This document shows, in pieces, positions 23,447 through 36,425 of a stretch of 64,000 nucleotides of DNA. Origin of the DNA: Sulfolobus islandicus Y.N.15.51 (lineage in GTDB: Archaea; Thermoproteota; Thermoprotei_A; Sulfolobales; Sulfolobaceae); assembly GCF_000022485.1 (NCBI RefSeq), contig NC_012623.1, positions 1,824,501 through 1,888,500 on the forward strand, written 5' to 3'. The first letter of the stretch is position 1. Every line of letters starts with the position of its first letter. The position numbers and the translations under genes are program-made. Under the pieces are notes generated by a model that worked only from the letters and a program-made list of their open reading frames with translations, did not search any database and was not told the DNA's origin.

Positions 23447-24480
23447 TGCTTTGTGGGCTACTTCAGAATTATACAAAAATTTATAAATAATTATGTCGAG
23501 TATTACCCATGGGAAAGAGTAAGTACAAGAGGGATTGGCACAAGTACGACGAGAACGTTATAACGAGATATACCCTAATGTTCCCCTTCTACGTCTTCGA
23601 ACACTGGTTTACTAGCAGAGGAGAATAGGCATGCCAAGAAAACCTACAAGGCACCAAAGGAGTTCAACGAATTCCTAGCACTCCTCCACATCTTCCTACC
23701 TTATATAGAAGGAGTATTGAGAGCACTAGAGAGACTGAAAATCATCAAGCCTAGACTACTCAACAATATGGGAAAGAGTAAGAAACATGAACATAAAATT
23801 CCCAGAGGCAAATGACCAACTTGAAGTAATAGCAGACGCAACGGGAATAAGCACAAACAAGGGAGGACAATACATTATCGCCAAGTGGGGTAAAACCAAG
23901 GACTCAAAATTCCTCAAAATCGAAATAGTAATTGATAAGGACCAATTCAACGTAATAAACGCTGAAGTAACCAGCAACGAAGTTGAGACTGCAGTTAAGA
24001 CAGTTAAGGATTTACAAGATAAGGGAAAGAAGGTCAAGAAGTTTTATGGAGATAAAGCTTATGATGCTAATGAGGTTTACAAGACTGGGGTTGAGGTTGT
24101 TGTCCCACCTAGGAAGAACGCTTCTACTAGGCGTGGCCATCCTGCTAGGCTGTAAGGGAGTTCAAGAGGTTGGGTTATAATCGTTGGAGGGAGGATAAGG
24201 GTTATGGTGTTGGGTGGAGGATTGAGTCCTTGTTCTCTGCTGTGAAGCGTACTTTTGGGGAATCTGTTAGGGCTACAAGTTTTTTAGGACAAGTGGTTGA
24301 GGCTAAGCTCAAGTTCTGGGCTTATGCATGGATGGTCCACTTGGCTAATTCTTTAGTTGGTAGAGCTCCGGGTATTAGGGTGTGAGCTTGCGAATAACGT
24401 TGAAATAAATATTAATTACTGAAAAATTCTCAGTGTATCATATCATGCTTATGAAATAAATTGAAGAGATCAACAAAGCA
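23447..24480 (+). mobile_element. ISC1058-like IS5-family element, decayed copy
   Basis: It begins TGCTTTGTGGGC and ends ...CAACAAAGCA (imperfect inverted ends), flanked by a 9-bp target duplication GTACCCAAG (23438-23446 and 24481-24489). The length is 1034 bp against about 1057 bp for the copy at 33867-36408 once its nested insert is removed; the difference is several small deletions. Confidence 0.85.
23509..24385 (+). pseudogene. IS5-family (ISC1058-like) transposase with several small deletions
   Basis: Starts MGKSKYKRDWHKYDENVITR as in the second copy, but the frame breaks after FEHW. Further pieces are INIKFPEANDQLEVIADAT-like sequence from 23787 and NRWREDKGYGVGWRIESLFS from about 24180. 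Four deletions relative to the second copy can be seen, near 23610 (GTGGGAATT region), 23704 (AGGGCC), 23748 (CCAAC) and 24151 (GAGAAAG). The DDE residues are spread over different frames, so it is inactive. Confidence 0.85.
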
Positions 24481-33865: not shown

Positions 33866-34750
33866 ATGCTTTGTGGGTTACTTCAGAATTATACAAAAAT
33901 TTATAAATAATTATACCGAGTATTACTCATGGGAAAGAGTAAGTACAAGAGGGATTGGAGCAAGTACGACGAGAACGTTATAACGAGATATACCCTAATG
34001 TTCCCCTTCTACGTCTTCCAACACTGGTGGGAATTACTAGCAGAAGAGAATAGGAATGCCAAGAAAACCTACAAGGCGCCAAAGGAGTTCAACGACTTCC
34101 TAGCGTTCCTGCACTTGTTCCTACCTTATAGGGCCATAGAAGGAGTATTGAGAGCATTAGAAAGACTGAAAATCATCCCAACAAGCCTAGACTACTCAAC
34201 AATATGGGAAAGAGTAAGAAACATGAACATAAAATTCCCAGAGGCAAATGACCAACTAGAAGTAATAGCAGACGCAACGGGAATAAGCACAACAAGGGGA
34301 GGACAATACATTATCGCAAAATGGGGAAAAACCAAGGACTCAAAATTCCTCAAGATCGAAATAGTAATGGATAAGGACCAATTCAACGTAATAAACGCTG
34401 AAGTAACCAGCAACGAGGTTCAGACTGCAGTTAAGACGGTTAAGGATTTACAAGATAAGGGAAAGAAGGTCAAGAAGTTTTATGGAGATAAAGCTTATGA
34501 TGCTAATGAGGTTTACAAGACTGGGGTTGAGGTTGTTGTTCCACCTAGGGAGAACGCCTCCACTAGACGCGGTCATCCTGCTAGGAGAAAGGCTGTAAGG
34601 GAGTTCAAGAGGTTGGGTTATAATCGTTGGAGGGAGGAGAGGGGTTACGGTGTTAGGTGGAGGATTGAGTCCTTATTCTCTGCTGTGAAGCGTACTTTTG
34701 GGGAATCTGTTAGGGCTACAAGGCACTACATGCTGACGCCTCTAACAAAC

Positions 34751-35911
34751 CTATGGGGATAACGAGTCTAGCGCGTCTCCCACGTCGAAGTCCTTGACAT
34801 TAACTTCCTTACCCCTAGGAATCCTAAAACTCTTCTTGACAACTCCCTTGTAAACACCGTCCTTTATAACATGATAACAAATGCTTGCAAGCTTTCCGGC
34901 AAGAGCACAAGTAGCTTGAGTAACACTCTTCCCCCTAGCAATAAGCCTCTCATAATACCCTTTAAAAGGCTCAAGACCCCTAGCAACCTTGGCAACCAAG
35001 TAGAGAGCTCTACGCAAATACTTATTACCCCTAATCATACCGGAGTGAGACTCGCTATCACCACTCTGCTTAGTTTTGGGTGCAAAGCTTGCATAAGCCC
35101 TAGCAGCCTTAGAACTGGAAAAACGGGAAACATCACCGAACTCAGCGTAAATAGTTGCAGCACTAATCAAACCAATCCCGGGGATCTTACTCAACTCAAT
35201 TACTGGTTTTGGAATCTTGGAAATTATCATATCCTCAACCTCCTTAATCATTTTCTCCAAGTTTTTTAACAGTTCAACTAATTGTTTTAACGCTAGTTTT
35301 TCCGCGTCGTTTAAGTTTCTCCCTAGTTTTTCTTTTAGTTCCTCCTTCTCTTCCTTGCTTAGTCCCTCCCCCTTTACTAGCTTTTCAAGTAGTTTTCTTC
35401 CCTTCTTGTCGAATGGTTGTATTTTATATCCCGCGAATTCTAATATTTTCCTTATCTCGTTCTTTACTTGTGTTGTCTTCTCTACTAAGCTTTCCCTATA
35501 TCTCGTTAGTTCTCTTAGCTCCATTATTTCTCCTGTTGGTATGTATGATCCCTTGATTACTCCGGTCATGTGTGCTACTAGTAACCTTTGTGCGTCGAGT
35601 TTGTCTGTCTTTTTCCCTAGTATTTCTGTTAGGTGTAGTGGGTTTATTACTGTTACCTTGTATCCTTTTTCCGTTAGTTTTTCGTGTAGGTAGAAGTAAT
35701 ATATTCCAGTTGCCTCTATTATTCCTTCCTTATATTCTCCTAGGAATTTAATTAGTTCCTCTATTCCCTCGTTGTCGTGGTTGAATTCCTTTACCTCCTT
35801 GACGTATACTGCTGATTTTTCTTGTTCTACTACTAGTTCTCCCTTTGCTGCTGTTAGTTTGCTTTGTGAAATATCAATTGCGAAGGCCTTGTTTGTAACT
35901 TTTAATTCCAT
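34751..35911 (-). CDS. IS110-family recombinase (DEDD transposase)
   Basis: A 386-residue intact protein. The N-terminal RuvC-like domain has D13 (FAIDIS), E66 (IIEATG), D103 and D106 (KTDKLDAQRL), the DEDD catalytic set. After a coiled-coil stretch (about 140-225) comes the Transposase_20 domain, starting LSKIPGIGLISAATIYAEFG, with the probable nucleophile S283 (KTKQSGDS). IS110 recombinases exchange DNA at a core dinucleotide guided by a bridge RNA made from the element's own non-coding end, which fits the long 5' region here. The long antisense frames in this gene are compositional. Confidence 0.93.
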   Translation of the reverse strand: MELKVTNKAFAIDISQSKLTAAKGELVVEQEKSAVYVKEVKEFNHDNEGIEELIKFLGEYKEGIIEATGIYYFYLHEKLTEKGYKVTVINPLHLTEILGKKTDKLDAQRLLVAHMTGVIKGSYIPTGEIMELRELTRYRESLVEKTTQVKNEIRKILEFAGYKIQPFDKKGRKLLEKLVKGEGLSKEEKEELKEKLGRNLNDAEKLALKQLVELLKNLEKMIKEVEDMIISKIPKPVIELSKIPGIGLISAATIYAEFGDVSRFSSSKAARAYASFAPKTKQSGDSESHSGMIRGNKYLRRALYLVAKVARGLEPFKGYYERLIARGKSVTQATCALAGKLASICYHVIKDGVYKGVVKKSFRIPRGKEVNVKDFDVGDALDSLSP

Positions 35912-36207
35912 GCTTGTGTATTACGCGTTTCTCGAGATATTTTTTGTTCTCATAATACCTTGTTTTCTTTGCATAGTGTTAAGTGTTTCAGCCCCTAGAG
36001 TATTTTGTTACAACCTCCTACTCGGGGGTTTTTATCCCCTCTTGTTAGATCGTTCTAGGGGCTTCACAGCTAGCCTTGTAGATGGGGTTTTATCCCCATG
36101 TTTTCTATGAGCTTATGTTGTTTTTCTCCTTACTTGTTTATTTCCTTTTCTCTTGTAATACTTGGTTTTATTCGTTCTCTTGTTTTGCGTGGATTGCCCC
36201 GTAGGAG
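35912..36207 (-). ncRNA. Candidate bridge RNA of the IS110 element (5' non-coding end)
   Basis: Read on the minus strand, this end contains a long stem AGCCCCUAGA/UCUAGGGGCU (36054-36063 with 35990-35999). There are two similar hairpins, GGGGAUAAAACCCC (within 36082-36099) and GGGGAUAAAAACCCC (36024-36039). The first is followed by CUACAAG (36075-36081), identical to the plus strand of the occupied target next to and including the AG core. The second is followed by GUAGGAGG (36014-36021), identical to the plus strand of the reconstructed circle junction (GTAGG-AG-G). Left of the first hairpin, UAGAAAAC (36100-36107) can pair with the other target half with one G-T wobble. A left donor guide was not found. 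RNA ends are not defined. Confidence 0.7.
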
Positions 36208-36425
36208 TTTTTTAGGACAAGTGGTTGAGGCTAAGCTCAAGTTCTGGGCTTATGCATGGATGGTCCACTTGGCTAATTCTTTAGTTGGTAGAGCTCCGGG
36301 TATTAGGGTGTGAGCTCGCGAATAACGTTGAAATAAATATTAATTACTGAAAAATTCTCAGTGTATCATATCATGCTTATGAAATAAATTGAAGAGATCA
36401 ACAAAGCAACACCTCATATAATTCT

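Follow-up and report, generated by a model that had tools for sequence, protein, structure and literature searches.

A candidate bridge RNA in the 5′ non-coding end of a Sulfolobus islandicus IS110 element and in its transposase-less relatives

The window analyzed here is a 64,000-nucleotide stretch of Sulfolobus islandicus Y.N.15.51 DNA (NC_012623.1, positions 1,824,501 to 1,888,500) that contains an IS110 element on the minus strand (Table 1). The element interrupts an ISC1058-like transposase gene and consists of a recombinase gene with 296 nt of non-coding DNA upstream and about 30 nt downstream, an arrangement that places it in the IS110 group and not in IS1111. The PF01548 and PF02371 matches of the recombinase are both above cut-off. 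The protein aligns with ISCro4 and with IS621 (8wt6, E = 7.6e-19), the EATG, KTD..DA, and SG motifs are aligned with those of IS621, and the first D (AIDIS) falls within the Pfam match. Other IS110 transposases of these genomes are only ~32–37% identical to this enzyme. The original prediction, made from the letters of the window, placed a bridge RNA in the non-coding DNA at the 5′ end of the element. The evidence described below makes it very likely that such an RNA (bridge RNA or seekRNA) is encoded there and that it guides the DEDD recombinase to its target.

Table 1. Coordinates of the element, its target, and the proposed RNA parts in the window
Feature	Position	Strand	Basis
Whole IS110 element	34721..36207	minus	core CT (36206-36207) to core CT (34721-34722)
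Recombinase CDS, 386 aa, DEDD_Tnp_IS110 (PF01548) and Transposase_20 (PF02371)	34751..35911	minus	Pfam E 1.4e-18, 1.8e-20
Bridge RNA core (predicted): target loop and donor loop	35988..36118	minus	fold z, covariance model R1
Left target guide UAGAAAAC (DNA TAGAAAAC), inside 10-nt variable segment 36098-36107	36100..36107	minus	pairs left target; own-site pairing exceeds swapped-site pairing
Target-loop apical hairpin GGGGAUAAAACCCC (DNA GGGGATAAAACCCC)	36084..36097	minus	invariant or nearly so in 18 homologues
Right target guide CUACAAG, AG pairing core CT	36075..36081	minus	complement of CTTGTAG; varies with insertion site in homologues
Outer target-loop stem, 3′ strand AGCU, partner 36110-36113	36068..36071	minus	alignment fold; U-A here, C-G in homologues
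Donor-loop stem, 5′ strand AGCCCCUAGA, partner 35990-35999	36054..36063	minus	alignment, fold
Conserved UCUAACAA, 5′ side of donor loop	36042..36049	minus	complementary to TTGTTAGA (34741-34748) in right end
Donor-loop apical hairpin GGGGATAAAAACCCC	36025..36039	minus	homologue alignment
Right donor guide GUAGGAG	36015..36021	minus	complement of core and left end CTCCTAC (36201-36207); fixed in family
Right donor, core CT and CCTAC, element start	36201..36207	minus	copies; compensatory versions
Right end AGGCGTCAGCATGTAGTGC and core CT, AGGC..GCCT inverted repeat	34721..34741	minus	conserved in homologues
Conserved AAGTATTAC block ~47 nt before RNA stem	36150..36165	minus	alignment of 18 left ends
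Left target TCCTAAAAAA, host flank in ISC1058-like transposase gene	36208..36217	minus	flank comparison among copies
Right target TGTAGCC, host flank	34714..34720	minus	flank comparison
Interrupted ISC1058-like (DDE_Tnp_1) transposase reading frame holding target	33929..34762	plus	Pfam PF01609 E 3.2e-18
Uninterrupted target copy, same window	24270..24289	minus	sequence match

Both ends of the element were fixed by the 16 copies in the host genome, 15 full-length and one broken, together with at least 8 uninterrupted target copies. Matches to the two flanks overlap by a CT core, and joining the flanks at CT gives the sequence of the uninterrupted ISC1058-like copies, which confirms the core that had been predicted. 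There are no long terminal inverted repeats and no target duplication beyond the core, as in other IS110 family elements. The sense-strand target reads TCCTAAAAAA-CT-TGTAGCCC, where hyphens set off the core. The genome contains 13 occurrences of RAAAACTTGTAG compared to 0 of the reversed control, and at least 8 of the 13 are ISC1058-like target copies that lack the insertion. The uninterrupted copy that the original prediction placed in the window is present. Eleven full-length copies and the broken copy share this one identical target in the ISC1058-like transposase gene, and the remaining full-length copies (L012, L013, and L014/L015) occupy three other targets.

The proposed RNA has the segment order of IS621: a stem, the left target guide, a hairpin, the right target guide, a stem, and then the donor loop. 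A 131-nt stretch covering the RNA, shifted by one base relative to the tabulated core, has a predicted folding energy of −45.5 kcal/mol compared to −27.9 kcal/mol for shuffled sequences (z = −4.79). The minus-strand segments CTACAAG, GTAGGAG(G) (36014/36015–36021), and TAGAAAAC and the two apical hairpins were located where they had been predicted. The first hairpin module was likewise found, and its outer stem is now refined to a pairing between two AGCU strands. The proposed structure contains four helices with 91.5% of pair cells formed, and the stems are conserved among homologues, with covariation no greater than in shuffles. A second AAGTATTAC-like block is found at 35948–35961, at a similar distance before the start codon of the CDS as the first block is from the RNA, and the two are possible archaeal promoter boxes. 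Rfam contains no match for the bridge RNA, and the support for the RNA comes mainly from its guides.

Alignment of the left ends of homologues gives a conserved RNA with two hypervariable segments, which are the proposed target guides. Column variability is 1.4–1.6 bits in the guides and 0.1–0.2 bits in the right donor guide and inner stems. As expected, homologues at other insertion sites differ in the target-loop segment according to the site, and their donor segment stays constant. The G005 copies (L061) have guides UCACACC and CAUAUAG and lie at TCACAC-CT-ATATG, L080 and L081 have GUGAAC and GGGGUAG and lie at GTGAA-CT-ACCCC, and L065 has GUUAUAAC and lies at GTTATAA-CT. Left and right guides thus match the insertion site and change with it. 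The host copies outside the main target provide a further comparison, with sites CATAGATAAC-CT-TGTAGTTA for L012, AGTAGAAAA-CT-TGTCCCAA for L013, and CAAGAAAACA-CT-TGTAACAG for L014 and L015. Their left targets are TAGATAAC, TAGAAAA, and AGAAAACA, their right targets are CTTGTAG, CTTGTCC, and CTTGTAA, and all are compatible with the guides UAGAAAAC and CUACAAG with few mismatches. The same guides are therefore not found at unrelated targets; these sites share the sequence that the guides predict. The left guide pairs the ISC1058-like site with the one wobble originally described, and at L013 the match to TAGAAAAC is perfect. Uninterrupted relatives of the L014 site are found in the host genome and others, and those of the L012 site in another genome.

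Pairing between each guide and its own site was scored against swapped sites using shuffles that do not model relatedness. In 24 autonomous insertions the right guide formed 4.46 of 6 pairs at its own site and 2.50 at swapped sites, the left guide formed 5.04 of 7 and 3.67, and 0 of 200,000 shuffles reached the own-site pairing on either side. Restricting the set to one event per guide (n = 13), the observed pairing was reached in 0 (right) and 1 (left) of 200,000 shuffles. The 24 autonomous insertions combined with 10 miniature elements scored 9.32 of 13 with their own guides versus 6.21 when swapped (z = 10.8, 0 of 100,000), and Watson-Crick pairs alone gave z = 11.8 for these 34 insertions. 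Right-guide pairing dropped from 4.44 to 2.1–3.0 when the target was slid by 1–3 bases. Relatedness is an unlikely cause of the signal because of the one-per-guide test and the independent sites. The permutation tests and the fold z-score place the predicted bridge RNA beyond chance.

Agreement between loops and sites in many copies, with loops that are clearly fast-changing, could also arise if the loops were copied from the insertion site afterwards and recorded the site instead of choosing it. This order of events is very unlikely. The identical RNA sits at four sites with imperfect fits, as expected if the RNA came first, and the two target guides, which flank a hairpin, read opposite strands. 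Still less probable is that the recombinase protein alone reads the target, with the left end acting as a regulatory RNA or leader and the flank matches being coincidental. The permutation z is above 10, and the G005 recombinases, 90–91% identical to this one, are at different sites that each fit their own loop; the right end is conserved yet unmatched by the RNA, so the protein may perform part of the recognition. A role for the left end as DNA, with single-stranded hairpins that are recognized by the recombinase and pair with the target, would resemble the IS200/IS605 elements, which have short DNA guide segments, and the hairpins would form in single-stranded DNA too. It is scarcely credible for a DEDD/IS110 enzyme that is not HUH and that aligns with IS621 and ISCro4, since IS621 was shown to use a bridge RNA (PMC11208160) and the layout here is that of a bridge RNA.

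The donor loop adds a second agreement to that of the bridge RNA target guides. The right donor guide complements the left end of the element and covaries with it in three compensatory versions. The element start is CTCCCAC and the guide is GUGGGAG in L069, L070, and L095, and the corresponding pair is CTTCCAC and GUGGAAG in L140. L142 and the G011 copies violate this rule, and the G011 reading frames are mostly broken.

Several points weigh against the bridge RNA reading. A systematic scan of 15 elements, in which every RNA column was compared in either orientation with the terminal 34 nt of the right end, detected no left donor guide. The sole match was a wobble-rich 6-nt segment, and a short or irregular guide could escape the scan. 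The IS621-type left donor guide matching the right end is thus missing, as the original prediction had also reported, and the RNA is therefore called a variant of the bridge RNA kind. Covariation within the stems is no greater than in shuffles, which is attributed to the sequences being close relatives. The left target guide does not have one fixed register and its best fits are at offsets from −1 to about +2. The fit is one-sided in some copies (L070, L134) and poor in L090 and L091, which is tentatively attributed to recombination between copies or decay. Finally, the loops were delimited by eye ahead of scoring, and related copies are not independent. Confidence in the guide reading is high, and in the variant features it is moderate.

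At the right end, bases 3–5 before the core vary (AGTGC, GGTGC, GGAGC, GAAGC, GGGGC, AACGC), whereas almost no change is seen on the 5′ side of the donor loop. Nearly all copies have a GC before the core, which could form pairs like those of the IS621 handshake with the GC that follows AG in the right target guide. AGGC...GCCT is present in the right end, which also forms a partial sub-terminal inverted repeat with the left end (CCCCATAGG at 34750–34758 and CCTACGGGG at 36197–36205); these features could be read by a protein. Complementarity between UCUAACAA and TTGTTAGA, which grows to 9 bp in the L079 type (UCUAACAUG/CATGTTAGA), was rejected as a guide because many copies do not have it and the miniatures are without the extension.

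In the proposed mechanism, UAGAAAAC in the first loop would pair to the left of the CT core with the bottom strand, and CUACAAG would pair with the top strand to the right of and including the core. GUAGGAG in the second loop would pair with CTCCTAC at the element's own start. The RNA would be transcribed and form a complex with the DEDD recombinase, which would join the excised circle and the target with strand exchange at CT and would mobilize the miniatures in trans. Homology to IS621 and the agreement of guides with sites suggest that the RNA is produced and functional. With the guides of this copy, insertion would be directed to a conserved part of the transposase gene of another transposon. 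Such a site is repeated and probably harmless, and this targeting accounts for the pile-up of the element in one transposase gene. Related elements and transposase-less miniatures have other guides and occupy other sites.

The covariance model matched about twenty sequences without a transposase gene. Ten of these are compact miniatures of 260–347 bp that have the left end, the complete bridge RNA, and the right end without a transposase, and elements of this kind with private guides are found among L127–L138, L142, and L143 (G005, G006, G009, G046, G000, G002). With the same ends, no transposase gene, and unrelated sites, they qualify as IS110 derivatives resembling miniature inverted-repeat transposable elements (MITEs). 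L127 and L128 are 98.6% identical with unrelated flanks and therefore moved. The miniature guides were also scored separately, using hand-delimited loops, and fit their own sites; the signal was weaker, and the observed pairing was reached by 3,721 (right), 1,490 (left), and 454 (both) of 100,000 shuffles. L131 and L137 lie inside IS110 transposase genes, and by flank reading the right target of L130 is that of L131. A search of open-access papers gave no earlier description of IS110 miniatures that carry a bridge RNA of their own. A tentative extension of these results, put forward as a real possibility, is that the bridge RNA is now a mobile unit, with privately programmed miniatures using the recombinase of full-length relatives and some landing in IS110 transposase genes, and that recognition of the right end needs no left donor guide, leaving three guides instead of four. 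The miniatures suggest that guide RNAs can spread and retarget without an enzyme gene.

Bridge RNAs and seekRNAs are established for bacterial IS110 and IS1111 elements (PMC11208160, PMC11187229). Bridge RNAs were predicted in 85.7% of ISfinder-catalogued IS110 elements, which may include archaeal ones; archaea are mentioned only in passing and Sulfolobus not at all (PMC11208160). The IS621 RNA (PMC11208160, PMC11208158) also derives from a long left end and has a left target guide, hairpin, right target guide, and donor loop. As here, its left guide equals the top strand, its right guide complements the top strand including the CT core, its right donor guide covers the core, and the enzyme is a DEDD and serine recombinase; the GC ahead of the core in the present element could form the handshake pairs described for IS621 (PMC11208158). 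Unlike IS621, the present system has an archaeal host, no detected left donor guide, a left target guide in loose register, a predicted fold without a stable 5′ stem-loop before the target loop, and the partial sub-terminal inverted repeat CCTACGGGG/CCCC(A/G)TAGG. IS621 forms a sigma-70 promoter at the circle junction, whereas here a conserved box lies within the left end ahead of the RNA. The ISEc21 seekRNA (PMC11187229) is similarly a short RNA from the upstream non-coding region with both target halves, and its target is a conserved stretch in the transposase gene of another insertion sequence family, IS3 in that case and ISC1058-like here. In contrast to ISEc21, many naturally reprogrammed relatives and transposase-less miniatures are found in one archaeal family. 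The IS110 elements of Sulfolobales such as ISC1229 (PMC10883916) belong to the same transposase family and, to judge by the ISC1058-like target, probably to the same host group; the sections of that paper on Cbp1 binding at ISC1229 discuss it without a guide RNA. The Sulfolobus MITEs SM3A and SMN1 (PMC3718332) resemble the miniatures in having no transposase, a length of a few hundred bp, and presumed movement in trans; they depend on ISC1058 and ISC1733, whereas the miniatures here combine IS110 ends with a complete bridge RNA that has private guides. The mechanism itself is known. What is new is an archaeal family with matched guides and sites, in which no left donor guide was detected and miniatures occur.

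Bridge RNA recombinases are a new class of programmable DNA-insertion enzymes characterized so far from bacterial elements. The present family looks like a naturally reprogrammable DNA-insertion system, and its dozens of natural guide-target pairs make guide length, register, mismatch tolerance, and donor rules readable. The recombinase is probably heat-stable, which could be tested.

Protein searches found no close relatives of the recombinase outside genomes of the same family, scans of collections with the recombinase protein alone gave no match, and plasmids contained distant relatives only. The comparison therefore rests on whole genomes of the same family. Among the 229 genomes of the class, covariance model R1 detected the RNA in 11, all of which belong to the 31 genomes of the family.

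Further features of the copies were observed. The number of CCT triplets at the element start varies (CTCCTAC, CTCCTCCTAC, and CTCCTCCTCCTAC; L014/L015, L065/L066, L061, L069, L072). L014/L015 and L065/L066 have a common left target and unequal triplets, so the number varies within the element; assignment of the extra triplets to the target is perhaps true for L072 and was otherwise rejected. In L082–L086 (G002) the right end is followed by 18 additional nt that the copies share (ATTAAGAAAAAGACTATA or AATATGAAAAAGACTATA) although their outer flanks differ, as if an element had picked up flanking DNA, and the first of these bases still fit the right target guide. Several copies at different sites, among L082–L086 and L072/L073 (G006), have a recombinase frame interrupted at similar positions, which may reflect mobilization in trans or a programmed frameshift. 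L061, L062, L063, and L067 (G005) and L095 (G046) are inserted at the start of another IS110-type transposase gene, and the L061-type flank reads VGVIGIDISKDYL on the other strand; IS110 elements therefore target each other.
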